DNA of 20,659 nt, from IMG/VR virus record IMGVR_UViG_3300025030_000467, positions 1-20,659 of that record. One strand, given 5' to 3'. This stretch comes from a virus. The position numbers and the translations under genes are program-made. Under the pieces are notes generated by a model. That model was not told the DNA's origin, made no database searches, and saw only the letters and a program-made list of their open reading frames with translations. Shown here piece by piece: positions 9,331 to 20,659 of this stretch. Every line of letters begins with the position of its first letter. Position 1 is the stretch's first letter.

Positions 9331-9477
9331 ATGGAAGAAGACCTAGTTCTAAAGAGTTTCAGACATATGTTGTACGTGTCCCTGTCCATGTTGGTGAAGT
9401 TTGGCAGGCCGACCAATGCTCCACAAGAGGATTGGGATTTTGCGTTGGCCGCTTTGCTGGCGATGGCGGAAGACTAA
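9331..9477 (+). CDS. 48-aa protein, unknown function
   Basis: This is the first gene of the accessory operon. It starts at an ATG with AGGAG 7-12 bases upstream. An in-frame GTG at 9280 would give a longer form starting MFHVKQ and reading through the parS palindrome, but it lacks a ribosome-binding site. The protein is short and probably helical: MEEDLVLKSFRHMLYVSLSM, then a PTNAPQEDWDFALAALLAMAED tail. No known domain is recognised. It ends 10 bases before the next gene, which reads its Shine-Dalgarno from AAGGAGG overlapping this stop. A small regulatory or inhibitor protein would suit the position but is not shown. Confidence 0.5.
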   Translation: MEEDLVLKSFRHMLYVSLSMLVKFGRPTNAPQEDWDFALAALLAMAED

Positions 9478-9487
9478 GGAGGATGGA

Positions 9488-9709
9488 ATGAAGGCAAAGA
9501 AGAAAGAGACAAAGATTGTGCGCGGGTACAGCCTGTCGCCTGTGAATGTGAAGTGGTTGAAGGAGAAGGCGGTGGGGCAGATGATTCTGGCGGAGGACTA
9601 TGTATCGGTCAGCGAAGCGCTGGACGTGTTGTTGACCCAAGCCAGGGAGGACGAACTGCGGGATGCGCGGATACTAGCGAAGGTGAAGTCCAGCGTGAAG
9701 GCGGCGTGA
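9488..9709 (+). CDS. Ribbon-helix-helix-like DNA-binding protein
   Basis: This 73-aa protein starts at the ATG at 9488 with AAGGAGG upstream. After a Lys-rich start (MKAKKKETKIVRGYSLSP), the pattern is a short strand, a helix VNVKWLKEKA, a turn, and a second helix VSVSEALDVLLTQARED, as in ribbon-helix-helix repressors and partition-type DNA-binding proteins. A basic C-terminus follows. It is the second gene of the operon that starts beside the parS-like palindrome, so autoregulation at a nearby operator is plausible. Its stop overlaps the next start in TGATG. Family assignment rests on the secondary-structure pattern only. Confidence 0.6.
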   Translation: MKAKKKETKIVRGYSLSPVNVKWLKEKAVGQMILAEDYVSVSEALDVLLTQAREDELRDARILAKVKSSVKAA

Positions 9710-9831
9710 TGGGCGCGGTGTTGAGCGCACGGACGAGTGAGGCGTATTGGGATCTGATCGAGGCGATTGTGGAGCTTCGACTGCGGGCGGAGTACCGCCC
9801 TCCGCTCAGGATGAAGCAGGAAGAGAGGTGA
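9709..9831 (+). CDS. 40-aa peptide, C-terminus encoded by a REP-like repeat
   Basis: It starts in a TGATG overlap with the upstream gene, so it is translationally coupled. The N-terminal 25 residues form a likely amphipathic helix (AYWDLIEAIVELRLR). Residues 22-36 (about 9774-9814) are encoded by repeat copy A2, giving RAEYRPPLRMKQEER, so a mobile repeat appears to have rewritten the C-terminus. No function is known. Confidence 0.5.
   Translation: MGAVLSARTSEAYWDLIEAIVELRLRAEYRPPLRMKQEER
9774..9814. repeat. REP-like palindromic repeat, copy A2
   Basis: CTTCGACTGCGGGCGG, AGTA, then CCGCCCTCCGCTCAGGATGA. It matches copy A1 (6784-6825) with only a few differences and lies inside the 9709-9831 reading frame. 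Confidence 0.8.
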
Positions 9832-9834
9832 GCG

Positions 9835-10125
9835 ATGGCAAGAGGAAGCAAAGGCGGGCTGGTGGGAAGGGCAGGAGCGGTGGAGTTGGCAGACCAAAGG
9901 CGGTGGCTGCACGAGGAGGGGCTGCGGAAGTTGGACGCGGATCGGCTGCATCGAGAGGCGGCCGAGATCACGGAAGAAAATGATCTGATCCGTATGGCGA
10001 TTGCGATGGAAGGCGAGAGATCTTTCTTCAGGTGGTGGGACGACGATACGCAGGTGCCGAGTTATGGGAAGCGGCGGGAGCGGATCAAGTTGTTGAAGAA
10101 GAGATTGAACCTGCATGAAGAGTAG
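9835..10125 (+). CDS. 96-aa charged helical protein, unknown function
   Basis: It starts at an ATG with GAGAGG upstream, four bases after the previous stop. The sequence is strongly charged and helical: ELADQRRWLHEEGLRKLDADR, REAAEITEENDLIRMA, then FFRWWDDDTQVPSYGKRRE and a basic helix RIKLLKKRLNLHEE. The aromatic SFFRWWDDD stretch between two helical arms is distinctive. There is no membrane segment. I do not recognise the family. Its gene order in a run of short coupled genes suggests an early accessory role, unproven. Confidence 0.5.
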   Translation: MARGSKGGLVGRAGAVELADQRRWLHEEGLRKLDADRLHREAAEITEENDLIRMAIAMEGERSFFRWWDDDTQVPSYGKRRERIKLLKKRLNLHEE

Positions 10126-10136
10126 TGTAGCGAAGG

Positions 10137-10259
10137 ATGAAAGCGCTGGCGAAAAAAGCCAGCAAGAAGCGGAAGACAAGCAAAAGAGCGCCGCCTACGA
10201 GCGCGAATGTGATCCTGCGGTTATTGGAGGGGCAGGGCGCGAAGACGAGGCCGAAATAA
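10137..10259 (+). CDS. 40-aa highly basic peptide
   Basis: It starts at the ATG at 10137, with GAAGG upstream, 11 bases after the previous stop. The first half is almost all Lys, Arg and Ala (MKALAKKASKKRKTSKRAPP), followed by a short VILRLLEGQGAKTRPK segment. The charge suggests nucleic-acid binding. It ends directly before a terminator, so it is the last gene of its transcript. Confidence 0.45.
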   Translation: MKALAKKASKKRKTSKRAPPTSANVILRLLEGQGAKTRPK

Positions 10260-10260
10260 A

Positions 10261-10292
10261 AAGAAAAGCCACCTGTGCAGGGTGACTTTCTT
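10261..10292. terminator. Rho-independent terminator with A and T tracts
   Basis: AAGAAAAGCCACC, a TGTGCAG loop and GGTGACTTTCTT form a hairpin with A-rich and T-rich arms. It starts one base after the stop of the basic peptide gene and ends the 9331-10259 operon. Confidence 0.75.
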
Positions 10293-10307
10293 AAGCGATG
10301 TGAGGGA

Positions 10308-10335
10308 TTGAATGACCCTCGAATGAGATTATAGC
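10308..10335 (+). promoter_or_regulatory. Candidate promoter
   Basis: TTGAAT (10308-10313), a 16-base spacer and TATAGC (10330-10335). The match is weaker than the one at 9225, but the place is right: just after a terminator and 58 bases before the next gene. Confidence 0.45.
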
Positions 10336-10392
10336 ACTGGTTTCGATATGCCGCATAGAGCGCGGCTACTCAAATACAAAAGGAGAAAAGCG

Positions 10393-10830
10393 ATGGCAGT
10401 ACAAAGAGAGCAAACCAAGACGAAGTATGTAGTTTCTGCAAGTGCGGTGCCCGACGAGGTGGTGAAGGCGGCGCAGGTGGTGATCGTGGCGGAGTATAGC
10501 TGGCATGTGATCGCGCCTGCTCCGTACCGAATGCACTGCCTGATGTCGTTTGCGCCCCTGCCTGCGGTGAGCTGCCCCGTGGTGGACGTGAAGAGGATTG
10601 CCGACGACGAGAAGATGGCGGCGATCTTGAAGAGCTGCACGGACCCGATTGCGGGGGTGATCAATATGGACGGACTGTTGACTGGGTTGGTGGCGTTGGG
10701 GGGGAAGGTAAGCCGATGCGGAAGGCAGAAGAAGCCGACGGCGAAAGATGTATCTACTGCACGGATGGAGAAGAAGGAGAAGCGGGGAGTCCGCTTTACT
10801 CGACCCGTGAGAAAGATGAGGGTGCATTGA
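10393..10830 (+). CDS. 145-aa protein, unknown function
   Basis: The ATG at 10393 has AAAAGGAG upstream; an earlier in-frame ATG at 10348 has none. Residues 1-100 look like a folded domain (KYVVSASAVPDEVVKAAQVVIV and SWHVIAPAPYRMHCLMSFAPLP). The last 45 residues are very basic (RCGRQKKPTAKDV, KKEKRGVRFTRPVRKMRVH). That tail overlaps another open frame starting at 10716 that would encode a CIYC-containing peptide, so one of the two frames may be spurious here. The stop overlaps the next gene's start in TGATG. No family is recognised. Confidence 0.5.
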   Translation: MAVQREQTKTKYVVSASAVPDEVVKAAQVVIVAEYSWHVIAPAPYRMHCLMSFAPLPAVSCPVVDVKRIADDEKMAAILKSCTDPIAGVINMDGLLTGLVALGGKVSRCGRQKKPTAKDVSTARMEKKEKRGVRFTRPVRKMRVH

Positions 10831-11015
10831 TGGACGATTTGAAGAGCAGCGCCAAAAGGGTGGTGGCGTTCTGGTTGACGATGATCCTTGTGATCGTGAT
10901 CGGCATCCTGCTGTGTGTGGTGTTGTCTGCCGTACTGGGGGTGGGGACTCCGCTGCGGCCTGTGATCGGGCAGGGTCATTCTTATCACGGTGGCTTTCAC
11001 GACCACCGATTGTAA
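10830..11015 (+). CDS. 61-aa single-pass membrane protein
   Basis: It starts in a TGATG overlap with the preceding gene. After a charged MDDLKSSAKR start comes one long hydrophobic segment (about residues 11-35, VVAFWLTMILVIVIGILLCVV), followed by a Gly/His-rich tail HSYHGGFHDHRL that could bind metal. An alternative start at 10716 would add 38 residues including a CIYC motif. Single-span small proteins in phages include holins and superinfection-exclusion factors; with no endolysin in view, the role stays open. Confidence 0.5.
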   Translation: MDDLKSSAKRVVAFWLTMILVIVIGILLCVVLSAVLGVGTPLRPVIGQGHSYHGGFHDHRL

Positions 11016-11029
11016 AGGAGCAGAGGCTG

Positions 11030-11173
11030 ATGATGGAATTCAAAGAGGTGCATGTGAAGGGTGTGACTTTCAACGTGGCGAAGGGAGTGATCTCCTTTTC
11101 GTTCCAGGTGGCGAAGACGGATGAGACGATGCAGACGGCGGAGTCTTTGGCGTTCTTTGTGGATAAAGGGTAG
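11030..11173 (+). CDS. 47-aa protein cut by an in-frame TAG; full frame runs to 11239
   Basis: It starts at an ATG with AAAGGAG upstream. It encodes MMEFKEVHVKGVTFNVAKG..., a beta-rich sequence ending SLAFFVDKG at TAG (11171-11173). The same frame continues as LTLMIENRQMSFSVLEKKEGA to TGA at 11237-11239, which overlaps the next ATG in a perfect ATGA. That architecture suggests the original 69-codon gene reached 11239 and that the amber codon is a recent nonsense change, a readthrough site or a suppressed stop. TAG is used as an ordinary stop elsewhere here, for example at 4089, 6783 and 7704. Confidence 0.5.
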   Translation: MMEFKEVHVKGVTFNVAKGVISFSFQVAKTDETMQTAESLAFFVDKG

Positions 11174-11235
11174 TTGACTTTGATGATCGAGAACAGGCAG
11201 ATGTCTTTCTCGGTACTTGAGAAAAAGGAAGGTGC

Positions 11236-11814
11236 ATGATGACTTCATCTATCTATGACATTTATGAATTCTATTTGGAAGCGCGGGATTTGAAAGAGAA
11301 GGCGCATGTGGTGAATGTTGAGTCTGTGCGGTTAGAGAGTGTGTTCAACCCGCAAAGCAATAAGAAGGATTCAAAAATATGCCTACGTTTTGTGAACAGG
11401 CGGAAGTCCATGCTGCTGAATAAGACTCAGGCGGGTGCAATGGAAGAGATCGCAAGGACTGACGACTATACCAAGTGGCAAGGCGTGGAAGTTGTTCTGA
11501 CCTCGGGGCGTGCGAAAAATGGGCGGCAGACTATCGTTATAACCAACCGCGCCAATTCTGGAGATATTGAACTGATGTACCCTCCGACCACACCGAAAGA
11601 AAAAAAGAATGATCCCGTAGTTATCCCTGCTGGTTTTTGGGATGCGCGTGAAAAAGGTGGGGCAGCAGTGAAGTTTGCGGCTGCACGTTGGGGGGTATCT
11701 CAGGCTCAGGCGTGGGGAATGATTGACCGCGCCATCAAGGAAGAGAAGGTTGGGGCAGTCTTGCCAGATCATGAGTTCAAGGGGTACGTGGAGATGGTGG
11801 CGGTGGAGAAGTGA
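11236..11814 (+). CDS. 192-aa phage protein, possible nucleic-acid-binding
   Basis: It starts at the first of two adjacent ATGs (11236), after GGAAGG. The N-terminal half has SVRLESVFNPQSNKKDSKICLRF and LLNKTQAGAMEEIARTDD, then WQGVEVVLTSGRAKNGRQTIVI. The order 'LNKTxA...I...W.G..V.L' recalls a widespread small phage domain of unknown exact role, possibly OB-fold. A linker PPTTPKEKKNDP leads to a C-terminal domain with FWDAREKGGAAVKFAAARWG and helix-turn-helix-like VSQAQAWGMIDRAIKEEKV. It overlaps the next gene's GTG start by four bases. A DNA- or replication-related role is inferred. Confidence 0.5.
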   Translation: MMTSSIYDIYEFYLEARDLKEKAHVVNVESVRLESVFNPQSNKKDSKICLRFVNRRKSMLLNKTQAGAMEEIARTDDYTKWQGVEVVLTSGRAKNGRQTIVITNRANSGDIELMYPPTTPKEKKNDPVVIPAGFWDAREKGGAAVKFAAARWGVSQAQAWGMIDRAIKEEKVGAVLPDHEFKGYVEMVAVEK

Positions 11815-11993
11815 TCTCGGTATCGAATGAGTGGTTCGAGGGGATCGGCGCTTATCGCGGGGTGATGCGGAAGGGGAACGAATACCGATATACGCGCAAG
11901 CAGTTCCAGGCTGGGGAGGAGGCGGAGTTGTATGCGTTGGCGGTGATGCTGAGGTTTAGAACCATCACTCTGCAGGGGGGAGCGGAAGGATGA
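11811..11993 (+). CDS. 60-aa protein, unknown function
   Basis: It starts at GTG overlapping the upstream TGA (GTGA) and its own stop overlaps the next ATGATG. The sequence, SNEWFEGIGAYRGVMRKGNEYRYTRKQFQAGEEAELYALAVMLRFRTITLQGG, is one small alpha/beta domain with a Tyr- and Arg-rich middle and no membrane segment. It is translationally coupled on both sides. Family unknown. Confidence 0.5.
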   Translation: MISVSNEWFEGIGAYRGVMRKGNEYRYTRKQFQAGEEAELYALAVMLRFRTITLQGGAEG

Positions 11994-12235
11994 TGAGCAT
12001 GGAGTCGGCGATGAAGGCGGCTCGAAAGCTGCCTGAGCCTTCCATTGGTATGGAGTTGAAGCTGAGGGTGGAGGTGTTGTGCGCTTATATGAAGCTGCAT
12101 GACTTGCGGAAGGTGGGGTGGCGCGGTGATCTGCTGGTGTTGACCCCCATCGACCCCCCCCCTGTCCTTCGGACATCCCCCCAAATGAAGAGCACATTTG
12201 GAGGGAGAACGGCGAGTGACAGGAAGCGCGGGTAG
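11990..12235 (+). CDS. 81-aa protein with repeat-encoded C-terminus
   Basis: It starts in an ATGA overlap with the previous gene. Residues 1-50 look like a real helical domain (MESAMKAARKLPEPSIGMELKLRVEVLCAYMKLHD). Codons from about residue 54 on (12151-12210) are repeat copy B1, giving PPPVLRTSPQMKSTFGGRTAS, so the natural C-terminus was probably replaced by insertion of the repeat. No function recognised. Confidence 0.45.
   Translation: MMSMESAMKAARKLPEPSIGMELKLRVEVLCAYMKLHDLRKVGWRGDLLVLTPIDPPPVLRTSPQMKSTFGGRTASDRKRG
12151..12210. repeat. Palindromic repeat, copy B1
   Basis: A C-rich start, TGTCC/TTC/GGACA hairpin, CATCCCCCCAAATG, AGAGCACATTTGGAGGGAGAAC. It shares order and spacing with copy B2 (14354-14416), where the compensating pair is AAATTCG/CGAATTT rather than AAATG/CATTT. 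The paired change keeps the hairpin, which supports a structured element. Confidence 0.8.
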
Positions 12236-12303
12236 GCCCGCATTCTCCTCCTTTTGTTGGCTGGTTTACGGTGACTGCCGAAGTGGAACCGTTGGGAGAA
12301 AGC

Positions 12304-12390
12304 ATGAAATGGAAAGCGATTGTGTATGGTCTTCTTGTCGAAGGCATTGTAGTTGCTCTGATTTTGATTACTTGTCACGGAGGCAAATGA
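12304..12390 (+). CDS. 28-aa membrane peptide
   Basis: MKWKAIVYGLLVEGIVVALILITCHGGK: a positive start, then one hydrophobic span of about 18 residues. It starts after GGGAGAAAGC, which is a plausible ribosome-binding site. It is followed 24 bases later by a second membrane peptide. The pair could be holin-like or a lysis or membrane regulator, but no lysin is seen. Confidence 0.42.
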   Translation: MKWKAIVYGLLVEGIVVALILITCHGGK

Positions 12391-12414
12391 AATGAATGCC
12401 GCTGGGAGGGTGAG

Positions 12415-12528
12415 ATGAAGGATCGTGCGCCTGAGCAGGGAAGGGTGTTGATGTGGCTGGGATTTTTTTTGATACTGGCCTGTGTGGTGTTGGCTGTGTT
12501 GAGCGGTTTTGATATATTTGGCGTGTAG
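12415..12528 (+). CDS. 37-aa single-span membrane peptide
   Basis: It starts at an ATG with GGGAGG upstream. MKDRAPEQGRVLMWLGFFLI begins a charged N-terminus followed by one hydrophobic span (about 12-31) and SGFDIFGV at the end. The charged start suggests an N-in orientation. It is the second of two tandem membrane peptides, after the one at 12304-12390. Confidence 0.45.
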   Translation: MKDRAPEQGRVLMWLGFFLILACVVLAVLSGFDIFGV

Positions 12529-12551
12529 CCAAGAAGGGAAGTGAGGTAAAT

Positions 12552-12728
12552 ATGAGCGCGGTCATTTATGGAAATTGCGAAAGATGCGGACAGCCGTTTA
12601 CGATGGAGGAGGATACGCATCATGTGACATTTTTGGTGGAAGGGATGGTGAGTGAGTGCCCGGTGTGCGGGAAGGAGTTGACTTATCCTTCGACTGCCTC
12701 CGCTCAGGACGGAGGGGAAGGTGGCTAA
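12552..12728 (+). CDS. 58-aa zinc-ribbon protein
   Basis: It encodes NCERCG near the start and ECPVCG near residue 36, two CxxC knuckles about 24 residues apart, as in small zinc ribbons. The middle THHVTFLVEG is beta-rich. The last 15 codons lie in repeat copy A3 (12686-12714), so the C-terminus is repeat-derived. The TAA overlaps the GTG start of the next gene by 8 bases, so the two are coupled. Zinc ribbons this size usually bind nucleic acid or proteins; the partner is unknown. Confidence 0.55.
   Translation: MSAVIYGNCERCGQPFTMEEDTHHVTFLVEGMVSECPVCGKELTYPSTASAQDGGEGG
12686..12714. repeat. REP-like palindromic repeat, short copy A3
   Basis: TCCTTCGACTG, CCTCCGCTCAGGACGGA: the same ends as A1 and A2 but without the GGGCGG/CCGCCC stem. 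It lies inside the zinc-ribbon gene. Confidence 0.65.
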
Positions 12729-13584
12729 GAACTCTGCAATTGAGTGGACGGATCATACGTTCAATCCGTGGATGGGATGCGTGCGCGTCTCGCCTGGGTG
12801 TGTGCATTGCTATGCCGAGACGTTCACCAAGCGATTCGGGAAGGCCGAGTGGGGGCCGACTGCGAAGCGGGTGAAGACCAGTGCGGCGTATTGGAAGAAG
12901 GCGTTGAAGTGGAATAAGGAAAAGTGGTTTCGATGTCAGGTTTGTGAATGGCGTGGGACTGCACCGTATGGTGATCAATCCTTTTGTCATGGACTGAAAG
13001 TAGTGCCGACCCGCCAGCGTGTATTCTGCGCATCCCTTGCGGATGTGTTCGAGGATAACCAGCAGGTGGCGAACTGGCGCGGGGAGTTGTTCCAGTTGAT
13101 CGAGAAGACTCCGAACCTAGACTGGCTGCTGCTGACGAAGAGACCTGAGCGCATATTCAGCCTGGGCACGGATGCAGTCGGCGAGGTTTTCGATAACTGG
13201 TTGGCGCGTAACCCGAACGTGTGGCTGGGCGCGACGGTGGAGAGTCAGGAATACTTCGAGCCGAGAGTCAAGGCGTTGCTGGATTGTTGCAGCGCGGTAT
13301 CTTTCCTTTCAGTGGAGCCGATGATCGCGCCGGTGAGACTGCCGCACAATAGGTCTGTGCAATGGGCTGACCGTTTGGATTGGGTGATCTGCGGAGGGGA
13401 GAGCGGGGTTGGCTGCCGACCAATGGATGTGCAATGGGCGCGGGACTTGCGCGATGATTGCATGGCGGGCGGGGTGAAGTTTTTCATGAAGCAGTTGGGC
13501 GGCAACCCGAAGAAGCGGGACAAGCTGGAAGACCTGCCCGAGGATTTGCGGATTCGGGAGTGGCCTGATGTTCGAGCCGACTGA
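12721..13584 (+). CDS. Phage Gp37/Gp68 family protein (DUF5131), radical-SAM-like
   Basis: This 287-aa protein begins AKNSAIEWTDHTFNPWMGC and then GCVRVSPGCVHCYAE, the family hallmark with three cysteines (Cx7Cx2C) thought to hold an iron-sulfur cluster in a radical-SAM-like fold. Later family features are VFCASLADVFED, NLDWLLLTKRPERI, PNVWLGATVESQEYF, SFLSVEPMIAPV and WVICGGESGVGCRPM, with KFFMKQLGGNPKK near the end. Length is normal for the family. An extra CQVCEW motif (about residue 73) may bind another metal. It starts at GTG overlapping the zinc-ribbon gene. The family is common in phages and mobile elements; its reaction is not established, so I name only the family. Confidence 0.88.
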   Translation: MAKNSAIEWTDHTFNPWMGCVRVSPGCVHCYAETFTKRFGKAEWGPTAKRVKTSAAYWKKALKWNKEKWFRCQVCEWRGTAPYGDQSFCHGLKVVPTRQRVFCASLADVFEDNQQVANWRGELFQLIEKTPNLDWLLLTKRPERIFSLGTDAVGEVFDNWLARNPNVWLGATVESQEYFEPRVKALLDCCSAVSFLSVEPMIAPVRLPHNRSVQWADRLDWVICGGESGVGCRPMDVQWARDLRDDCMAGGVKFFMKQLGGNPKKRDKLEDLPEDLRIREWPDVRAD

Positions 13585-13780
13585 CAACATCCCCAATTTT
13601 GGGAGCGTGCCTGTGCGCCGGCGTGGCGGGGCGTGGACGATAATGCGCGTGACACGAATGGCCTACCGCAGGACGATGATCAACTTTGCGAAGTTGATCA
13701 TCGTGGAGTTCCTGAACAGGCAGACGTGGGATGTGGAAGCGGTGGTGGACGAGTGGCTGAACGGGTCCCCCCAGTTATGA
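13568..13780 (+). CDS. 70-aa protein, unknown function
   Basis: It overlaps the DUF5131 gene by 17 bases. The N-terminus PTDNIPNFGSVPVRRRGG is flexible; the C-terminal half is helical (MINFAKLIIVEFLNRQTWDVEAVVDEWLNG). A short region encoded near 8986-9030 (CTNIVIEYLRR) is loosely similar to AKLIIVEFLNR, possibly a degraded relative. Function unknown. Confidence 0.42.
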   Translation: MFEPTDNIPNFGSVPVRRRGGAWTIMRVTRMAYRRTMINFAKLIIVEFLNRQTWDVEAVVDEWLNGSPQL

Positions 13781-13794
13781 GCGCTCGACGTCAC

Positions 13795-13825
13795 TATACT
13801 TTTGGGTCCCCTCTATTTAAGTATA
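13795..13825. promoter_or_regulatory. Inverted repeat in an intergenic gap
   Basis: TATACTT (13795-13801) and AAGTATA (13819-13825) form perfect 7-base arms 17 bases apart, between the genes ending at 13780 and starting at 13893. It could be an operator or part of an AT-rich promoter; no clear -35/-10 pair was found. Confidence 0.35.
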
Positions 13826-13833
13826 AGAGAGTC

Positions 13834-13869
13834 GTGTGATGTGTGTGATGTGATGTGTGTGATGTGTGT
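13834..13869 (+). repeat. GTGTGATGT low-complexity tract
   Basis: GTGTGATGT-type units repeat several times, then a run of eight or more T. It lies in the leader of the gene at 13893. Such tracts change length easily and could vary spacing or transcription. Confidence 0.6.
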
Positions 13870-13892
13870 TTTTTTTCTAGCGGAGTAAAGCG

Positions 13893-14327
13893 ATGTCGAT
13901 CATGAATCTACACAGAAAAGGCAAGATCTTCAAGGACGATGGAAAGACACTGACCTTCGACCCAACGAAGCAGGAATTCGAGGGCGAGTTTATGGCGCAA
14001 AAACAGGGGAAGCCGTTACGCATCAAGAAGGAAATACGGTCAAAGCTGGACTGGTTCAAGGAGGATTATCCGACACGGTTCAAGGCATTGGCGGAGCGGA
14101 TAGCGATTGAACTGGTGAAGTATCTGGTGACGATAAACGACAATGAACCTGTGGAGTTGAGCCAGGTCTATCAGGAAGGGGCCTACCTTTTGAAGGTTTC
14201 GCCCGAGACGATAAAGCGGTACATCTACGCACACACGGCGATGAACGCGGAACTTTATCGAATTGGGAAGAAGGTGAAAGTGAATCCGTTTTACGATGAT
14301 GACGAAGAGGAAGACAGTGAACAGTAA
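13893..14327 (+). CDS. 144-aa protein with HTH-like segment
   Basis: The ATG at 13893 has CGGAG 8-12 bases upstream. The N-terminus is basic (MNLHRKGKIFKDDGKTL), followed by an alpha-helical middle (IRSKLDWFKEDYPTRFKALAERIAIEL). Residues about 100-125, EGAYLLKVSPETIKRYIYAH, read as a helix-turn-helix with a recognition helix like 'SPETIKRYI'. A Lys/Val segment (RIGKKVKVNPFY) and an acidic tail DDDEEEDSEQ end the protein. It is therefore a likely DNA-binding protein, perhaps a regulator or replication factor, behind its own gap. Its last bases overlap the next gene's candidate GTG start. Confidence 0.55.
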   Translation: MSIMNLHRKGKIFKDDGKTLTFDPTKQEFEGEFMAQKQGKPLRIKKEIRSKLDWFKEDYPTRFKALAERIAIELVKYLVTINDNEPVELSQVYQEGAYLLKVSPETIKRYIYAHTAMNAELYRIGKKVKVNPFYDDDEEEDSEQ

Positions 14328-14697
14328 TCGTCTGGTGCATGAGGAAGCCATGACGACCCCCTCTGTCCTTCGGACATCTCCCCCAAATTCGGAGAGCACG
14401 AATTTAGGGGAGAAACAATACGTCGCAGTGCAGGCAGGCGACGGAGTCAACTTTATGCCTGGAGAGATTCAGCCCTCGGTGATGAAACGCATCGAGATGA
14501 TCGGGAAGTTGAATGACCGCTGGCTGGAGTATCGTACGGCAGGTGATGGCGAGTCCCTGCTGAGACTGGCAGAAGAATACGCGAAGAAGAAGATGCCAGT
14601 GATGGCGAATATCGTGAGGAAGGAGGCAGCAGAATGTCAGACAGAGCAGAGCCGAAGTCAGACCGCAGACCGCAGACCGCAGACCGTACACGGTTGA
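14317..14697 (+). CDS. 126-aa protein with repeat inserted near its N-terminus
   Basis: The candidate GTG at 14317 has GAAGAGG upstream; the ATG at 14350 with GAGGA is an alternative. Copy B2 (14354-14416) encodes residues 13-33 (TPSVLRTSPPNSESTNLGE), so the repeat sits inside the gene. The remainder is a helical domain: PGEIQPSVMKRIEMIGKLND, WLEYRTAGDGESLLRLAEEYAKKKMP and MANIVRKEA. The C-terminus overlaps the next gene and is Gln/Arg-rich (RSQTADRRPQTVHG), encoded by tandem CAGACCG units. No family recognised. Confidence 0.5.
   Translation: MNSNRLVHEEAMTTPSVLRTSPPNSESTNLGEKQYVAVQAGDGVNFMPGEIQPSVMKRIEMIGKLNDRWLEYRTAGDGESLLRLAEEYAKKKMPVMANIVRKEAAECQTEQSRSQTADRRPQTVHG
14354..14416. repeat. 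Palindromic repeat, copy B2
   Basis: CGACCCCCTC, TGTCC/TTC/GGACA hairpin, CTCCCCCAAATTCGG, AGAGCACGAATTTAGGGGAG. It has the same layout as copy B1, with compensating arm changes (AAATTCG/CGAATTT). Confidence 0.82.
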
Positions 14698-14909
14698 CAG
14701 TTGCACTGGCGAAACTGGAGGATGTATTCACGTCGGAGCAGGTGTCACAGATGATCGACGTGCTCGTGATAACCTTTGACAATGCGGTCATGCGCAAGTG
14801 CGACCAGACCTTCACGATTCTATTCAATGACAAGGGCTATCCCATCGGGTTCAACGGCAGCAACAACGTCAAACCCGTGCGGCCCGTGTCCACGTATAAG
14901 GCGGAGTGA
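14634..14909 (+). CDS. 91-aa protein, unknown function
   Basis: It starts at an ATG with GGAGG upstream and overlaps the previous gene by 64 bases in another frame. Four tandem CAGACCG units (14659-14686) encode a low-complexity DRRPQTADR start. The folded part has TVALAKLEDVFTSEQVSQMIDVLVITFDNAVM and QTFTILFNDKGYPIGFN, a helix then beta strands. The end is SNNVKPVRPVSTYKAE. Function unknown. Confidence 0.48.
   Translation: MSDRAEPKSDRRPQTADRTRLTVALAKLEDVFTSEQVSQMIDVLVITFDNAVMRKCDQTFTILFNDKGYPIGFNGSNNVKPVRPVSTYKAE
14659..14686 (+). repeat. Four tandem CAGACCG units
   Basis: Four exact 7-base units in a region where two genes overlap. Seven is not a multiple of three, so gain or loss of one unit would shift both reading frames. 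Confidence 0.85.
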
Positions 14910-14912
14910 GAG

Positions 14913-15104
14913 ATGGCAAAGAAAAGCGGACCGAAACCGAAGGGCTACGTAATCTTATCGGTGAGGCTGCCAGTCTATTACGTGGCAGCGATGAAGGCAG
15001 TGAATGCGGAATGCGGCGGCGGGTTGGCAGTCAATGAACAAATCCGCCGCGCTGTCCGCAGTATGTTGTGCGGACTCGTATATTCGAGTCTGGTCAAACC
15101 ATAG
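14913..15104 (+). CDS. Ribbon-helix-helix-like protein at the array boundary
   Basis: This 63-aa protein begins MAKKSGPKPKGYVILSVRLP, a basic arm then a strand. Helix YYVAAMKAVNAECGGG and helix LAVNEQIRRAVRSMLCG follow, as in ribbon-helix-helix DNA-binding proteins. It is the last gene on the phage side. Its TAG ends at G15104, exactly the G of the first cassette junction G|TT. Perfect inverted repeats inside its 3' end (GTCCGC/GCGGAC at 15054-15075 and ACTCG/CGAGT around 15073-15090) lie next to the junction. It may be a regulator and its end may have been shaped by cassette insertion; both points are inference. Confidence 0.58.
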   Translation: MAKKSGPKPKGYVILSVRLPVYYVAAMKAVNAECGGGLAVNEQIRRAVRSMLCGLVYSSLVKP

Positions 15105-15143
15105 TTCGGCGGCTTCCTTGCCAGCCGAAAGAAAGGTAAAACG

Positions 15144-15461
15144 ATGAATTGCCAAGAATTACTTAAACTCGCAGATAATCATGTTGAAATTGCGCTTCAC
15201 TTACCAGAGTATGAAGGTATGCAATTGATTATGGTTAGCGGAGCAATCACCACAGAAGAAAGATTTGAAAACTTCACCGATTCACTTTGCCATCTTTTCG
15301 ATGATGGAATTATCCGTAGATACCGCCGTGAAATTGGCTCATTTGCAGATATTGAAGTTTTGAAAATCATTGACGCTGATTGCGTAGACGCCGCCGAACA
15401 CAGCATGCACCAGACCGCCTTTGGCGCGGGTGGGCGTGGCGATTTCCCCCTGCTTGGGTAA
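15144..15461 (+). CDS. Cassette 1 protein, 105 aa, unknown
   Basis: It starts at an ATG with GAAAGG upstream, 39 bases inside the first cassette. The sequence is acidic and alpha/beta: QELLKLADNHVEIALHLPEYEGMQLIMV, then TTEERFENFTDSLCHLFDDGIIRRY and FADIEVLKIIDAD. The last 22 residues are encoded by attC 1. The frame passes through the R'' heptamer as GCC GAA CAC; a GCC TAA version, the usual cassette heptamer, would have stopped it, so the unusual T-to-G form keeps the frame open. No family recognised. Confidence 0.55.
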   Translation: MNCQELLKLADNHVEIALHLPEYEGMQLIMVSGAITTEERFENFTDSLCHLFDDGIIRRYRREIGSFADIEVLKIIDADCVDAAEHSMHQTAFGAGGRGDFPLLG

Positions 15462-15517
15462 CTTCAAGCAAAGTACCGTCCGCTATTTTCGGCGGCTGGT
15501 AATGCAAACCGTTAGGC
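15393..15517 (+). repeat. attC: attC site 1
   Basis: R'' GCCGAAC (15393-15399), arms GCATGCACCAGACCGCC and GGCGGCTGGTAATGC, R' GTTAGGC (15511-15517); 125 bp. The unpaired A is 15414, nucleotide 22. R'' complements GTTCGGC at 15104-15110, the start of its own cassette. Confidence 0.9.
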
Positions 15518-15530
15518 GTTTGGTGAGTAA

Positions 15531-15740
15531 ATGAAAAATCGCAAATGTCGTATGTGTGAAAAAGATGTTGTCGCTCTTGGATTTGATCCAAAGAAAAAGA
15601 CAATCACTTATTACCATGAAGACGGCGAGTTTTGCACTTTCAAGCCACGCCTAACAAAACATGCACCCGACGCGCGAGAGTCTGGCGCAAAAATCGTCAA
15701 GTCCAAATCAAAGAGGTCTGCAAAATCCGCGCGCGGGTAA
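15531..15740 (+). CDS. Cassette 2 protein, 69 aa, unknown
   Basis: It starts 19 bases after the junction. MKNRKCRMCEKDVVALGFDPKK has a CxxC knuckle (CRMC) but I see no second clear pair, only a lone Cys in GEFCTFKP. Residues about 40-69 are encoded by attC 2 and are basic (LTKHAPDARESGAKIVKSKS). The protein may be a single-knuckle metal-binding peptide. Function unknown. Confidence 0.5.
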   Translation: MKNRKCRMCEKDVVALGFDPKKKTITYYHEDGEFCTFKPRLTKHAPDARESGAKIVKSKSKRSAKSARG

Positions 15741-15755
15741 TGCAGTCCGTTAGGT
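15649..15755 (+). repeat. attC: attC site 2
   Basis: R'' GCCTAAC (15649-15655), arms TGCACCCGACGCGCG and CGCGCGCGGGTAATGCA, R' GTTAGGT (15749-15755); 107 bp. Unpaired A at 15670, nucleotide 22. R'' complements GTTAGGC at the start of its cassette. Confidence 0.93.
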
Positions 15756-15772
15756 GTTTTATTTGGAGAATT

Positions 15773-16543
15773 ATGTCATCTATTATATGTCCAACATGTA
15801 GTCAAGATTTGAGGGCAAAGCCACATGAGGGATGGCGTGGCGCAAATTGTTCTCAATGTGGCCAGGGGTTGCGGTGGCATTATGCCGCAAAATTAGCACG
15901 CCTAACAAAGCGTGCACGCCGACGTGTGGCGGGCGGTTGGCAAGCGTGCCGCCACACGCGGGTAACGCTCGCCGTTAGGTGCTCCATGCTAAATCGAGAT
16001 GGTCTTATAAACAGCGATCACTGGGCAACACCAGCCAAACTTTATAAAAAGTTGGACGCTGAATTTCATTTTGATTTTGACCCATGCCCATTGCACGCAA
16101 CCTTTGACGGTCTGCAAGTTGAATGGGGTAACGTCAATTTCATAAACCCGCCATATAACCGCAAAGATAAGCCGCGATTTATTCAGAAGGCTTTCGATGA
16201 ATGGCGTAAAGGTAAAACCTGTGCGCTTCTCATTCCAGCGGCAACAGGCACAAAACAATTTCACGATCTTATTCTGCCCCATGCTGAAATCCGTTTCCTT
16301 CGTGGGCGGGTCGCGTTCGCAGGCTACAACACAAAAGGAGAATATGTCACAAACAACAAAGGTAAACACGATAGCATGTTAGTTATCTTTCACGGCACGC
16401 ACCTAACAAAGCGTGCACTGGACGAAAAGCCGTCCAGCGTTTTTTTCAAGTCCTCAGTTACTCGCGGCTTTTCGCCAGTTACGCAAGCCGTTGGAAGGCT
16501 AAAAATATGTTCTCGTATTACGGCAGTAAAAGCAAACTCGTAG
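15773..16543 (+). CDS. Zinc ribbon fused through attC 3 to a Dam-type methyltransferase (256 aa)
   Basis: The ATG at 15773 has GGAGAA upstream. Residues 1-35 form a zinc ribbon with CPTC (6-9) and CSQC (26-29). There is no stop before attC 3, so the frame runs on: residues 43-70 (RLTKRARRRVAGGWQACRH...) are translated attC, and Met72 is the start of cassette 4's methyltransferase. One open frame therefore joins two cassettes through the recombination site. A fused protein may be made, or ribosomes may restart at 15986. The attC part is Arg-rich and could act as a linker or DNA-contacting arm. The overlap is direct from sequence; a functional fusion is inference. Confidence 0.6.
   Translation: MSSIICPTCSQDLRAKPHEGWRGANCSQCGQGLRWHYAAKLARLTKRARRRVAGGWQACRHTRVTLAVRCSMLNRDGLINSDHWATPAKLYKKLDAEFHFDFDPCPLHATFDGLQVEWGNVNFINPPYNRKDKPRFIQKAFDEWRKGKTCALLIPAATGTKQFHDLILPHAEIRFLRGRVAFAGYNTKGEYVTNNKGKHDSMLVIFHGTHLTKRALDEKPSSVFFKSSVTRGFSPVTQAVGRLKICSRITAVKANS
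15900..15980 (+). repeat. attC: attC site 3, translated
   Basis: R'' GCCTAAC (15900-15906), arms with GACGTGTGGC and GCCACACGCGGG, R' GTTAGGT (15974-15980); 81 bp, the shortest. Unpaired A at 15922. Cassette start is GTTAGGT, so R'' differs from the perfect ACCTAAC at one base. It lies inside the 15773-16543 reading frame. Confidence 0.93.
15986..16543 (+). CDS. Phage-type DNA N6-adenine methyltransferase (Dam family)
   Basis: This 185-aa protein begins MLNRDGLINSDHWATPAKLY and has FDFDPCPLHATFDG. NFINPPYNRKDK (residues 52-62) holds the catalytic NPPY, with KTCALLIPAATGTKQFHDLI and FLRGRVAFAGYN, all typical of the short phage Dam family. It should transfer a methyl from SAM to adenine N6. 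The core ends near residue 138 (DSMLVIFHG); the remaining 47 residues are translated attC 4 and 37 bases of cassette 5, ending at 16543 inside the next gene. It is only 11 bases after the cassette junction, so its ribosome-binding site is weak and fusion to the zinc ribbon may matter. Confidence 0.88.
   Translation: MLNRDGLINSDHWATPAKLYKKLDAEFHFDFDPCPLHATFDGLQVEWGNVNFINPPYNRKDKPRFIQKAFDEWRKGKTCALLIPAATGTKQFHDLILPHAEIRFLRGRVAFAGYNTKGEYVTNNKGKHDSMLVIFHGTHLTKRALDEKPSSVFFKSSVTRGFSPVTQAVGRLKICSRITAVKANS
16401..16496 (+). repeat. attC: attC site 4
   Basis: R'' ACCTAAC (16401-16407), arms CTGGACGAAAAGCC and GGCTTTTCGCCAG, R' GTTGGAA (16490-16496); 96 bp. Unpaired A at 16422. R'' complements GTTAGGT at 15974, the start of its own cassette, not its own R'. 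Confidence 0.95.
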
Positions 16544-17523
16544 ACCTATACCCTGCCCCGAAGCATGGCAAGGTAATTGAGCCTTTCGCGGGAAGCGCAC
16601 GTTATGCGCTGAAATATTTTGACCGTGATGTTTTGATTGTTGACGCTTACGATGTCGTTATAAAAATCTGGCAATACTTGCAGCTCGCAAGTGAGAAAGA
16701 TATTTTAGGCTTGCCAGATTTGACATACAAACAATCAACGGCTGATTACAACCTTTCCGAAGGTGAGCGTCTGTTACTTGGCTTCTTGGTTGCGCGTGGC
16801 TCTCGCCGCCCTGCTAAAGTTGTTCAAAAGTTTTCAAGCGTGGCGCAAGATAAAATCCGCATTGCCAAAGACCTGTATAAAATTCGTCACTGGAAAATTC
16901 AGCAAGGCGATTACAAAGATATTCCAAACGATGAAGCCACTTGGTTTATTGACCCGCCATATCAGAACGTAGGAAAGGCTGGTTACAATGTCAATGAGCG
17001 CGGCAAGGCAATAGATTTTCCTGCTCTTGGTGAGTGGTGTAAATCGCGTAATGGTCAGGCGATTGTTTGCGAAGTCACTACCGCCGATTGGTTGCCATTT
17101 GAGCCGCTCAAAAAACAACATGGTCAAAAGTTATTCAGCACCGAAGCAATCTGGTGTAATGATAATTGGTCTTATCAACAGCAGCTCTTTACACCTTCCA
17201 ACACAGCGTGGAGCGGACTCGTTGAAAGCGGGCGCACTTTGCCCGCCGTCGTGAATTTTCAAAAAGGTATGAGCCAGCGTAAAGCCGCTCACGCCAACCG
17301 TTGGAAGGACAGTGTTATGGACGAAACAGATAGGATGCAAGAGCAATTTTGCTTTATTTACGGCGAGCCAGTATCCAGGCATGATCCAGATTGGCTTACA
17401 TCGTTTGGATTGTTCGCAAAAGGCTGGGAGTATGGCAAAGCCTTCCAACAAAGCGTGCAATTGACCGATGGTGGGCACGCCGAATCTGACAGCGAATCTA
17501 CATCCGCCACCATCGGCAATTAA
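16507..17523 (+). CDS. D12-class DNA adenine methyltransferase fused through attC 5 to a second cassette protein
   Basis: The ORF is 338 aa. Residues 1-230 are a D12-type N6-adenine methyltransferase: FSYYGSKSKLVDLYP (2-16), SAM-binding motif PFAGS (26-30), and catalytic FIDPPYQN (147-154), with the usual YP...IEPFAGS order. The gene has no stop before attC 5, and residues about 230-267 are translated attC. Met271 (17317) is the likely start of the protein of cassette 6, with GGAAGGA upstream. The overlap of the preceding methyltransferase's end with this start couples them. No restriction partner is present, so it probably modifies phage DNA against host nucleases. Confidence 0.85.
   Translation: MFSYYGSKSKLVDLYPAPKHGKVIEPFAGSARYALKYFDRDVLIVDAYDVVIKIWQYLQLASEKDILGLPDLTYKQSTADYNLSEGERLLLGFLVARGSRRPAKVVQKFSSVAQDKIRIAKDLYKIRHWKIQQGDYKDIPNDEATWFIDPPYQNVGKAGYNVNERGKAIDFPALGEWCKSRNGQAIVCEVTTADWLPFEPLKKQHGQKLFSTEAIWCNDNWSYQQQLFTPSNTAWSGLVESGRTLPAVVNFQKGMSQRKAAHANRWKDSVMDETDRMQEQFCFIYGEPVSRHDPDWLTSFGLFAKGWEYGKAFQQSVQLTDGGHAESDSESTSATIGN
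17196..17306 (+). repeat. attC: attC site 5, translated
   Basis: R'' TTCCAAC (17196-17202), arms AGCGTGGAGCGG and CCGCTCACGC, R' GTTGGAA (17300-17306); 111 bp. Unpaired A at 17217. This rare heptamer matches the cassette's own 5' end, GTTGGAA at 16490. Confidence 0.88.
17317..17523 (+). CDS. Cassette 6 protein, 68 aa, unknown; internal start
   Basis: It starts at an ATG with GGAAGGA (17303-17309), in frame with the upstream D12 gene. MDETDRMQEQFCFIYGEPVSR, then PDWLTSFGLFAKGWEYGKAF, reads as one small helical domain. The last 27 residues are translated attC 6 (QQSVQLTDGGHAESDSES). No family recognised. It may be made free or as a C-terminal extension of the methyltransferase. Confidence 0.55.
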   Translation: MDETDRMQEQFCFIYGEPVSRHDPDWLTSFGLFAKGWEYGKAFQQSVQLTDGGHAESDSESTSATIGN

Positions 17524-17538
17524 CGCAAACCGTTAGGC
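17443..17538 (+). repeat. attC: attC site 6
   Basis: R'' TTCCAAC (17443-17449), arms AATTGACCGATGGTGG and CCACCATCGGCAATT, R' GTTAGGC (17532-17538); 96 bp. Unpaired A at 17464. R'' complements the cassette's own GTTGGAA at 17300. Confidence 0.92.
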
Positions 17539-17562
17539 ACTTCCTTCGAGAGGCAAAGTAGC

Positions 17563-19356
17563 ATGAAATCAGTGTCATTGTTTTCAGGGATAGGCGGTTT
17601 TGATTTAGGCTTTCAGCGTGCGGGTATTGAGTGCGTCGCTGTTTGCGAGATAGATAAAAACGCTCAATCCGTTTTGCTACGTCGCTTTCCCGAAGCAAAA
17701 TTATTTGATGATGTAAGAAAGGTAGGCAAAGAAACACATGAGCGAAAATCAATTGACATTGTTTGTGGTGGATTCCCCTGTCAGGATGTCAGCATTGCGG
17801 GAAAACGGGCGGGCATTGCTGGAGAGCGAAGCGGATTATGGTTCGAGTTTGCACGAGTTATTGATGAACTTGAGCCGCAGTGGGTTGTTATCGAAAATGT
17901 CCCTGGTCTTTTATCCAGCAACAAAGGAAAAGACATTCAAGTAATAATTGACTATCTTACTCAAATAGGATATACTTGCGACATTGACATAAAAGACGCG
18001 CAAGAATTTGGCGTCGCACAACGAAGAAGGAGAGTGTTTCTAACATGCGTGAGACTAGACGTTTTACTAAAGCAGAGGACGAATTTATCAAAGCAAATCT
18101 CAGCCGATTTACTATCACAGATATTGCTAAACGCTTGGGGCGCAACCCAGCAAGCATCGTCTCTCGTGCCACTACACTCGGTTTACGAAAAGCCAATAGA
18201 ACGGTGCGTAAGTTTACTGAGCAGGATGACGGGTTTGTTAGAGATAACGCGGGAAAGATTAGCCTGCAAGAAATATCTAAACAGCTTGGACGTTCTACTG
18301 GATCAATTTGGGGAAGAGGGCAAAAACTCGGAGTCTGGTTTGATAAAAAGATCAGGAATCCAGAAGGACGAAAACTCAGGAAAGACGGTTATGTATCCAT
18401 CCGACTTGAAAGCGGAGAATGGCGACATGAACATATCCTTGTGGTTGAAGGAATACTTGGACGCCGTTTGCAAAACGGAGAAGGCGGTCACCACATCAAC
18501 CTTGAGAAATCGGATAACAGACTATCAAATCTATATTTTTTCCGTGATGGCACTGCTCATAGTAGAGCGCATACTTCTCTCAACCGATTGGTCAAGCAGT
18601 TATTGGAGCGTAGCGTCATCACTTTCAACACTGATACAGGAGAATATGAATTATGCGAGACAAGCAAGTAGAAACTTGTTTATCGAATCTGGACTGCGTG
18701 ATAGTTGGCGGGATTATCTCGATTCCGCATCCAATATCCAGGGTGAACTTGAGTGCCGTATTGGAAATATCCGCGCCGCCGAAGTATTATTTGAGTCCGA
18801 GAGCGGCACATGGGATAATCCGCCGAGCAGAGAAGCGGGGAAAGAAGTTGCCTATTCACTTAGAGCAAACCCTTCGCACAGTGGCGACAAAGGCGATGGA
18901 GGAATAAATACAACAATGATTGCCAATACTGTGCAGGCGCAAGAAGCAAAAAAAAGTAACTCACCTGAAAATAATTATGTGCTTGCTTTTGGCTGGAATA
19001 AATCGCCGTCGCAAACAATGAGCGTCACAGAAAAGGCAGGCGCATTACAGGCAAGCCCTACTTCAAATCCTGCTATATGGGAAATGTCCCACGCCGATGA
19101 AGCAGTCCGCGAGAATGGCGAAGTCGTGCCGACTTTACAGGCACGAATGGGAACAGGCGGTAATCAAGTTCCGATGGTTGGCGTCCGCCGTCTTATGCCT
19201 ATTGAATGTGAAAGGTTACAAGGCTTTCCCGATGGATGGACGGATGGACAAAGCGACAGCGCGAGATATAAGCAACTAGGAAATGCTGTTGCTATTCCAG
19301 TTGTTGAATGGATAGGCAAGCGTATAAAGGCAGTAACGTGCCTAACAAATGCGTGA
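17563..19356 (+). CDS. C5-cytosine DNA methyltransferase interrupted by an HNH insert
   Basis: The ORF is 597 aa. It carries SLFSGIGGFDLGF (motif I), GGFPCQDVSIAG (motif IV, catalytic Cys73), ENVPGLLSS (motif VI, 111-119) and QRRRRVFLTC (motif VIII, 153-162). The expected continuation, GNIRAAEVLFESESGTWDNPP, only appears about 240 residues later. Motif IX (RRLMPIECERLQGFP) and motif X (GNAVAIPV) near 573-580 complete the enzyme. The intervening bases are an HNH gene in another frame, yet this frame stays open throughout. Either the insert is removed at the RNA level or the protein has a long extra loop. The end falls inside attC 7 (CLTNA). It should methylate cytosine C5 in a short unknown sequence. 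Confidence 0.87.
   Translation: MKSVSLFSGIGGFDLGFQRAGIECVAVCEIDKNAQSVLLRRFPEAKLFDDVRKVGKETHERKSIDIVCGGFPCQDVSIAGKRAGIAGERSGLWFEFARVIDELEPQWVVIENVPGLLSSNKGKDIQVIIDYLTQIGYTCDIDIKDAQEFGVAQRRRRVFLTCVRLDVLLKQRTNLSKQISADLLSQILLNAWGATQQASSLVPLHSVYEKPIERCVSLLSRMTGLLEITRERLACKKYLNSLDVLLDQFGEEGKNSESGLIKRSGIQKDENSGKTVMYPSDLKAENGDMNISLWLKEYLDAVCKTEKAVTTSTLRNRITDYQIYIFSVMALLIVERILLSTDWSSSYWSVASSLSTLIQENMNYARQASRNLFIESGLRDSWRDYLDSASNIQGELECRIGNIRAAEVLFESESGTWDNPPSREAGKEVAYSLRANPSHSGDKGDGGINTTMIANTVQAQEAKKSNSPENNYVLAFGWNKSPSQTMSVTEKAGALQASPTSNPAIWEMSHADEAVRENGEVVPTLQARMGTGGNQVPMVGVRRLMPIECERLQGFPDGWTDGQSDSARYKQLGNAVAIPVVEWIGKRIKAVTCLTNA
18045..18671 (+). CDS. HNH endonuclease inside the methyltransferase gene
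   Basis: This 208-aa protein is in a different frame from its host gene. Residues 5-50 and 55-100 are two similar helical DNA-binding repeats (FTKAEDEFIKANLSRFTITD; FTEQDDGFVRDNAGKISLQE) with 'AKRLGRNPASI' and 'SKQLGRSTGSI' turns. The HNH part is YVSIRLESGEWRHEHILVVEG and GEGGHHINLEKSDNRLSNL (145-163). Its Shine-Dalgarno, GAAGGAG, is formed by the codons for the conserved methyltransferase motif QRRRRV. Homing endonucleases often target conserved motifs, which fits this site. I see no clear group I core, so it may be a free-standing insert. Confidence 0.85.
   Translation: MRETRRFTKAEDEFIKANLSRFTITDIAKRLGRNPASIVSRATTLGLRKANRTVRKFTEQDDGFVRDNAGKISLQEISKQLGRSTGSIWGRGQKLGVWFDKKIRNPEGRKLRKDGYVSIRLESGEWRHEHILVVEGILGRRLQNGEGGHHINLEKSDNRLSNLYFFRDGTAHSRAHTSLNRLVKQLLERSVITFNTDTGEYELCETSK
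18653..18907 (+). CDS. Possible out-of-frame small phage protein overlapping the methyltransferase
   Basis: This 84-aa frame starts at the end of the HNH gene and reads ...VNLSAVLEISAPPKYYLSPRA then HGIIRRAEKRGKKLP. From memory this matches a recurrent small phage protein pattern ('SLSDILE..APPKYYLSPxAxxGILRRAEKRGKxLP'). The same bases, one frame apart, encode the methyltransferase segment RAAEVLFESESGTWDNPP. Both readings look conserved. It may be a truly overlapping gene or a shadow of a conserved methyltransferase region; I lean only slightly towards real. Confidence 0.4.
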   Translation: MRDKQVETCLSNLDCVIVGGIISIPHPISRVNLSAVLEISAPPKYYLSPRAAHGIIRRAEKRGKKLPIHLEQTLRTVATKAMEE

Positions 19357-19468
19357 ACCCGACGTGTGGGAGTCGTCGCCTTTACGGGCATTTTCCCACC
19401 TTCGAGATTATCCACATCTCAAAGTTTATCCAAGCCCGCCCACACGCGGGTAACGCAAACCGTTAGGC
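19340..19468 (+). repeat. attC: attC site 7
   Basis: R'' GCCTAAC (19340-19346), arms CCCGACGTGTGGG and CCCACACGCGGG, R' GTTAGGC (19462-19468); 129 bp with the longest middle part. Unpaired A at 19362. R'' complements the cassette's GTTAGGC at 17532. Confidence 0.95.
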
Positions 19469-19477
19469 TTCTTACTT

Positions 19478-20497
19478 ATGTCAGCAAAAATACTCGAAGG
19501 CAATGTCCTTGAAACCCTGAAAGACCTGCCAGCCTGCTCGGTTCAGTGCGTGGTAACTAGCCCGCCTTACTACGGCTTGCGCGATTATGGAATTGATGGG
19601 CAGATAGGTTTAGAGCCTACGCCCGAAGCCTATGTAGAAGTTCTTGTCACCTTGTTTCGAGAAATCCGCCGGGTACTAAAAGATGACGGTACAGTGTGGC
19701 TCAATCTTGGTGATAGTTATTGGGGCGGTAAAGGCTCAAATGCTAATCTTGATAAAGGCATTGAAAACCGTATTGCCGAAGGTCGCACTATTCAACGTCC
19801 GCAAACGAGAATACAAAACATGAAGGTTATCCCCACCAATGGCAAGCACGAATCAATCAAAGCTAAAGACTTGGTAGGTATCCCCTGGATGGTTGCGTTT
19901 GCGCTCCGCAATGATGGATGGTATCTGCGCTCCGAGATAATTTGGGCAAAGAAAAACTGTATGCCCGAAAGCGTGAAAGACCGCCCGACCCGTTCACATG
20001 AGCAGATATTTCTTTTGTCGAAGTCGTCAGATTATTACTACGATTACGAAGCGATAATGACACCAACAAAAGGCAGTGAGCATGATAAACGAGCGCGTGT
20101 TTCTCGAAAGCGTTTTCCTACCGATACCGTGAACGGCATCCGCAAGACTGGTTATTATCCAATGGCAAACGCCCGCGATGTTTGGCATATCCCAACAAGA
20201 CCATACAAAGAAGCGCACTTCGCCGTATTTCCCCCCGACCTGATAGAACCCTGTATCCTAGCAGGTAGTAAAGAAGGCGACATAATTCTTGACCCGTTCA
20301 ATGGCTCAGGCACTACGGGCGAAGTCGCAATCAAGTACCATCGTGAATATATTGGATGTGAAATAAACCCAGAATACATCCGTCTCACAGAGAGAAGGTT
20401 ATCAAAAATTCAGCCAGTCTTAATGCAAGAACGAAGCCTAACAAAGCGTGAACCCGACAAGGGCAACGCCGCGGCTCAATTTGAGAACTTTGAATAA
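19478..20497 (+). CDS. Site-specific DNA methyltransferase, beta class (N4-cytosine or N6-adenine)
   Basis: The protein is 339 aa. VVTSPPYYGLRDYG (catalytic SPPY 28-31) comes before the SAM motif DPFNGSGTTGEVA (272-284), the order of beta-class amino-methyltransferases. Between them are VWLNLGDSYWGG, LVGIPWMVAFALRNDGWYLR and IIWAKKNCMPESVKDRPTRSHEQIFLL, all typical. The SPPY form allows N4-cytosine or N6-adenine; target unknown. It starts 15 bases after the cassette junction. Codons from about residue 320 (LTKREPDKGN) are translated attC 8. It is the fourth methyltransferase in the array, without a nuclease partner. Confidence 0.9.
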   Translation: MSAKILEGNVLETLKDLPACSVQCVVTSPPYYGLRDYGIDGQIGLEPTPEAYVEVLVTLFREIRRVLKDDGTVWLNLGDSYWGGKGSNANLDKGIENRIAEGRTIQRPQTRIQNMKVIPTNGKHESIKAKDLVGIPWMVAFALRNDGWYLRSEIIWAKKNCMPESVKDRPTRSHEQIFLLSKSSDYYYDYEAIMTPTKGSEHDKRARVSRKRFPTDTVNGIRKTGYYPMANARDVWHIPTRPYKEAHFAVFPPDLIEPCILAGSKEGDIILDPFNGSGTTGEVAIKYHREYIGCEINPEYIRLTERRLSKIQPVLMQERSLTKREPDKGNAAAQFENFE

Positions 20498-20546
20498 ATT
20501 TATAGTCTTGCGTTCTCGCCCTTGCGGGTTACGCAAGCCGTTGTAT
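20436..20546 (+). repeat. attC: attC site 8
   Basis: R'' GCCTAAC (20436-20442), arms CCCGACAAGGGC and GCCCTTGCGGG, R' GTTGTAT (20540-20546); 111 bp. Unpaired A at 20457. R'' complements the cassette's GTTAGGC at 19462. The unusual R' predicts that the next cassette ends in an R'' of ATACAAC. Confidence 0.94.
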
Positions 20547-20572
20547 TGCTTTCTTGCTCATAAAGGAGTTTT

Positions 20573-20659
20573 ATGAAAATAAAGTTTTCTTTTATTTGGT
20601 TCGATGTGTGGGTTGGTTTCTTCTACGATCAGAAGAAGCGCATTTTATATTTCTGCCCT
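20573..20659 (+). CDS. Cassette 9 small protein, 3'-truncated by window edge
   Basis: The ATG at 20573 has AAAGGAG upstream, 32 bases after the cassette junction. The visible 29 residues, beginning [19 protein letters not shown] and continuing [10 protein letters not shown], resemble a short phage- and cassette-borne protein seen in many phages ('MKIKFSFxWFDxWVGFFYDxKKxxLYxCP'), whose function I do not know. It is rich in aromatic residues but is probably not a membrane protein. The frame runs off the window. Confidence 0.72.

Follow-up and report, generated by a model that had tools for sequence, protein, structure and literature searches.

A phage-borne attC cassette array with four DNA methyltransferase genes and a candidate attI-like site at its left edge

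Gene content of the phage record and its array

The window analysed here covers one IMG/VR virus record in full (20,659 bases; Table 1). Its left 15.1 kb carry head and tail genes first and small genes after them, with PHROGs matches to a major head protein (phrog_212), a tail fibre and tail-associated proteins. With the 896-aa protein of positions 4093–6783 as the query, two relatives were found, G001 and G002. The first has 37,957 bases and an exact 127-base terminal repeat, which marks it as a complete circle, and the window genes from 47 to 14909 are essentially colinear with it when it is taken as a circle. G001 has serine integrase and repressor genes behind its tail genes; the window lacks them at the corresponding position. 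The genes at 12721–13584 (phrog_2045) and 13893–14909 are conserved in G001 and partly in a further relative, G027; the former, whose PHROG has no assigned function, is a conserved phage gene near the array locus in G001. The phage protein of positions 11236–11814 had no relative among viral contigs. The 20.6-kb fragment has no terminase; both complete relatives, G001 and G027, have one. Very probably, the window represents the right-hand portion of the genome, about 38–40 kb long, of a tailed phage, a confidence that we attach jointly to the whole explanation developed below.

Two genes of the window contain inserts. The head protein gene is interrupted at 961/1592 by about 680 bp (positions 945–1625), within which lies a LAGLIDADG ORF (973–1617); the head gene of G002 is continuous. 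The insert of the C5 methyltransferase gene (18037–18750) contains an HNH ORF (18045–18671) in another frame, the C5 frame remaining open throughout. Rfam gave no match anywhere in the window, so that neither insert is a recognised intron.

To the right of the phage genes, the first-pass annotation had read eight attC sites by eye. We built a covariance model from 12 sites, seven from the window (by eye) and five from the phage record G003. It accepted 8 of 8 rather than rejecting most of them, all on the + strand with E values from 3e-13 to 2e-22, and found no further attC on either strand of the window. The eighth site, 17196–17309, had been held out of model building and was recovered at E 3e-13. 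Stem pairing holds in 93% of cells, compared with 27–36% when the partner is slid by 1–3 columns, and the stems contain 25 double changes, where shuffling gives a mean of 7.8. All eight sites are oriented as in a cassette array; they delimit eight complete cassettes, the ninth being cut off at the contig end, and with eight clustered attC sites, where the definition asks for at least two, the array is a candidate CALIN (cluster of attC sites lacking an integron integrase).

Each window cassette has its own R'' box complementary to its leader over 6–10 nt. Across 116 cassettes from the window and other records, the mean run is 8.4 nt between a leader and its own R'' and 3.8 nt between a leader and the neighbouring (preceding) site, the former value being, if anything, an underestimate, since some cut points in the other records are misplaced. 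This preference for the cassette's own site is characteristic of free cassettes that were joined one at a time.

Table 1. Features of the window; attC sites are those of the covariance model.
Feature	Position	Strand	attC site	G/TT cut point	Content or basis
Structural module, phage	1..8950	+			PHROGs; colinear with G001, G002, G023, G027
Small-gene (early/accessory) module, phage, up to the array	9280..15104	+			Includes 12721-13584 (phrog_2045) and 13893-14909
Putative orphan attI-like site	15064..15106	+		15104/15105 (left edge)	Dyad GACTCG-TATATT-CGAGTC, then TGGTCAAACCATAG/TT
Cassette 1	15105..15511	+	15393-15520	after 15511	ORF 15144-15461, no function assigned
Cassette 2	15512..15749	+	15649-15758	after 15749	ORF 15531-15740, no function assigned
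Cassette 3	15750..15974	+	15900-15983	after 15974	ORF from 15773, putative zinc-ribbon-like by eye
Cassette 4, Dam-type N6-adenine methyltransferase	15975..16490	+	16401-16499	after 16490	ORF from 15986; PF05869, E 2e-16
Cassette 5, D12-class N6-adenine methyltransferase	16491..17300	+	17196-17309	after 17300	ORF from 16507; PF02086, E 2e-6
Cassette 6	17301..17532	+	17443-17541	after 17532	ORF 17317-17523, no function assigned
Cassette 7, C5-cytosine methyltransferase	17533..19462	+	19340-19471	after 19462	Gene 17563-19356; PF00145, E 2e-72
Cassette 8, N6/N4 DNA methyltransferase	19463..20540	+	20436-20549	after 20540	Gene 19478-20497; PF01555, E 5e-54
Cassette 9, incomplete	20541..20659	+			Contig stops within it

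Four cassettes encode methyltransferases, and their assignment to different classes in the annotation is borne out by matches to Dam, MethyltransfD12, DNA_methylase and N6_N4_Mtase; the catalytic motifs are readable in each. It had also noted the lack of a matching nuclease, and indeed restriction endonuclease families are absent among the cassette ORFs, so that the enzymes are orphan methyltransferases in the sense of having no cognate restriction nuclease in the window. The HNH ORF is an insert in another frame of the C5 gene and not a cognate nuclease. The D12 ORF (16507–17523) runs across an attC site into cassette 6, and the true end of the gene is probably near 17190–17300; a cassette gene in phage G003 matches it at 54% identity. 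The N6/N4 enzyme had only distant homologues in genome contigs, spread over many phyla. DNA methyltransferase families account for 14 of the 114 cassette ORFs taken from 23 further records and the window (four of the 14 lie in the window), and no other protein function recurs, the remaining ORFs being mostly short and without a family match.

The left edge and the array locus in related phages

Cassette 1 begins at 15105, immediately past ...CAAACCATAG. The motif at this edge, a dyad and then some 15 nt that end roughly in WAAAMMATAG/TT, precedes the first cassette of intI-less arrays in several unrelated groups. Similar motifs stand at the left edges of arrays in G004, G008, G017, G023, G033, G034, G046, G052, L068, L069, L077, L078, L092 and L106, and the motif recurs in further records outside the set that defined it. 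With an attI profile trained without the window's own phage group, 15104 ranks first among the 628 GTT positions of the window. Left edges rank first within their own record in 15 of 26 cases, the number of independent cases being below 26 because some single-locus groups may be kin and a few edges are 3' ends of intI. From these patterns, positions 15064–15106 appear to be an orphan attI-like site, one on which an integrase could act in trans. A scan limited to sigma-70-type promoters gave no match there. A 14-base attI pattern searched over viral contigs was too unspecific and was set aside; among the matches listed, two known array records were recognised. G034 (L158–L160) has two separate arrays, each beginning at the attI-like motif, at 43642 on the + and 25935 on the − strand (strand-oriented coordinates).

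That the array is genuine phage cargo, as the annotation held, is supported by arrays at the same locus in two relatives, G027 and G023, where they follow the homologue of window gene 14634–14909 and precede lysis and terminase genes. G027 has 39,875 bases and, by its 127-base terminal repeat, is a complete circle; it carries a terminase and the phrog_212 head protein. At this locus G001 has a lone 574-aa methyltransferase. As the window ends inside its array, the continuation of phage DNA beyond it is deduced from these relatives.

Other origins of the sequence from 15105 onward have to be weighed against this evidence. It might be host DNA, from a prophage lying beside, or recombined into, a chromosomal integron: the contig terminates within the array, and prophage p16 of Vibrio anguillarum excises at attC sites in a chromosomal integron (PMC9892861). 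However, the complete circle of G027 holds its array internally, with early genes on one side and terminase on the other, and arrays are likewise internal in complete circles from other phage groups; one and the same gene stands upstream of the array in G023 and of the lone methyltransferase in G001; and in G001 and G027 the serine integrase is elsewhere, directly after the tail genes. On the same-locus evidence from relatives we rejected a prophage next to a host integron as distinctly improbable. An assembly chimera of a phage contig with a bacterial integron contig could be imagined from the shift in base composition and GC skew near 15.1 kb in what is a metagenome assembly. The join, however, falls exactly on a G/TT cut point, after a motif common to unrelated phages and ranking first in the window, and at a locus occupied by arrays in relatives, which together make a chimera very unlikely, its probability being close to negligible. 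The relatives appear to answer both objections about as well as sequence without reads can.

Integrases and cassette sharing among phage groups

The annotation had described the array as lacking an integrase. No match to TIGR02249 was found in the 20.6-kb window; as the array runs past the contig end, this absence holds for those 20.6 kb alone. Integron integrases above the TIGR02249 cut-off were found in 7 of the 49 array records searched, including G027, whose integrase scores 394.6 bits against a cut-off of 265 and has the IntI-specific insert. Arrays with no detected intI are the commoner form (42/49 records). In IMG/VR, 151 stretches encode relatives, and attC sites of the same type, where found near these genes, lie nearly all downstream and codirectional. 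Where phages bear intI (G027 included), attI sits at the 3' end of the gene; one integrase clade has its first cassette starting on the intI stop codon or a few bases away. In a tree whose bacterial integrases came mainly from Planctomycetota and Pseudomonadota, with a few other bacterial genomes, those associated with phage arrays formed two clades apart from the bacterial ones, with 18 members (support 0.994) and 5 members (0.989). Relative to this limited bacterial sample, the phage integrases appear to form clades of their own, which may be phage-specific. In G015 (L131, 859–5828), a divergent IntI-like recombinase scoring 257 bits, just short of the cut-off, is found inside that record's own attC array, after which comes a second tyrosine recombinase.

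The pattern CYAACAAAGCGTGNACNNGAC had 56 matching stretches in IMG/VR, and the covariance model was positive in 49 of 50 records selected by the pattern, with up to 12 sites each. Eight of the fetched array records (G004, G025, G027, G033, G036, G046, G047 and G052) are complete circles by terminal repeat, and PF03237 identifies a terminase in six of them. Sorted by shared genes, the fetched records make up eight groups that have fewer than six genes in common with one another; judged by these sequences, attC arrays recur in at least eight unrelated phage groups, more widely than the annotation had supposed.

Cassettes with 77–95% DNA identity occur in different groups, e.g., G003/G023/G004, G015/G046/G038 and G023/G034, and most of these cross-group alignments begin at, or a few bases from, a cut point. 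The C5 cassette of the window is 82% identical to one of virus Rctr41k over its first 399 bp, starting at the cassette border; the Rctr41k cassette has no HNH insert. Together with the differences among relatives at the same locus, these near-identical cassettes substantiate the modular gain, loss and sharing that the annotation had envisaged, and the exchange of cassettes among phages appears well supported. We also considered a single capture from a host, after which the array would have been a passive block, selection keeping the methyltransferases and no exchange going on. The lack of an integrase in the window and the prevalence of intI-less arrays speak for this; the different cassettes at one locus in relatives, the similar cassettes in different phage groups, and the leader/R'' identity preserved cassette by cassette speak against it, and we consider it unlikely.

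Proposed model and relation to known integrons

Overall, we regard it as highly probable that the accessory locus, with early genes on one side and lysis and terminase genes on the other, is an integron platform made up of an attI-like site and an attC cassette array. An integron integrase would be supplied in trans, by the host, as the annotation had proposed, or by another phage in the same cell, such as the relatives with intI, and would recombine folded attC bottom strands at G/TT, inserting or removing cassettes. The cassettes would circulate among unrelated phages and, most likely, their hosts. The four methyltransferases would most likely methylate the phage DNA, so that host restriction enzymes fail to cut it. 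The sequences themselves show attC structure and covariation, exact cassette borders, the leader/R'' match, phage context, the common locus, cassette sharing, the conserved attI-like motif and the IntI of the relatives, whereas recombination activity, integrase supply in trans and anti-restriction function are inferred.

Orphan methyltransferases can regulate genes, and those of the array might serve gene regulation, packaging signals or lysogeny control instead of anti-restriction. We find this doubtful: four classes without a cognate nuclease would better fit the evasion of several restriction systems. A broader reading, on which our judgement is evenly balanced, is that phages have an integron world of their own, with dedicated attI platforms served by phage-specific intI lineages or, at orphan sites like that of the window, in trans, and a shared pool of small cassettes, rich in methyltransferases, traded among unrelated phages.

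The annotation had placed integrons usually on bacterial chromosomes, plasmids or transposons; phage-borne arrays as such are not new. In 10,705 phage genomes, Qi et al. 2023 described three complete integrons, one In0 and 17 CALINs, together with five methyltransferase cassettes and phage attC sites recombined by IntI1 (PMC9892861). No other paper on phage integrons was found in the literature searched, which excluded subscription journals and preprints. The CALINs of Tetrasphaera phage TJE1, Polaribacter phage P12002L (two methyltransferases) and PH101 consist of intI-less attC cassettes and include methyltransferase cargo, as do the 20.6 kb of the window; the latter differs in its eight cassettes with four methyltransferase classes, its left-edge attI-like site common to unrelated phages, and the intI of its relatives at the same locus (PMC9892861). 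Complete integrons with intI and an attC array are known in Vibrio anguillarum p16, an E. coli P1 isolate and Shewanella M16-3, where they represent parts of host integrons already known or of class 1 integrons (PMC9892861), whereas the phage integrases here fall into their own clades, relative to limited bacterial sampling, and are codirectional with the array. Archaeal integrons have attI immediately downstream of intI (PMC9668308), as do the intI-bearing phages; those described here are in phages, and in the window the attI-like site stands without intI.

What goes beyond this prior work is the presence of attC sites in 49 of 50 records and eight groups, the cross-group cassettes, the phage intI with attI, and the attI-like motif without intI. 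Phage integrons had so far been seen in about twenty genomes, where they looked like host arrays captured now and then. Should recombination be confirmed, integrons would serve gene exchange in phages and not in bacteria alone, and phages would reassort counter-defence genes one cassette at a time. The integrase, the attC sites and the attI-like site are all testable by standard E. coli assays.

Virus Rctr41k (GenBank KX853513; L400), from a methane-oxidising enrichment, is a different phage that has the C5 methyltransferase cassette in common with the window and an intI of its own. Positions 4680–10104 form a complete phage integron, in which intI (TIGR02249, 383 bits) is followed by six attC sites; the existing annotation names only a xerD integrase-like protein and hypothetical or methyltransferase genes.
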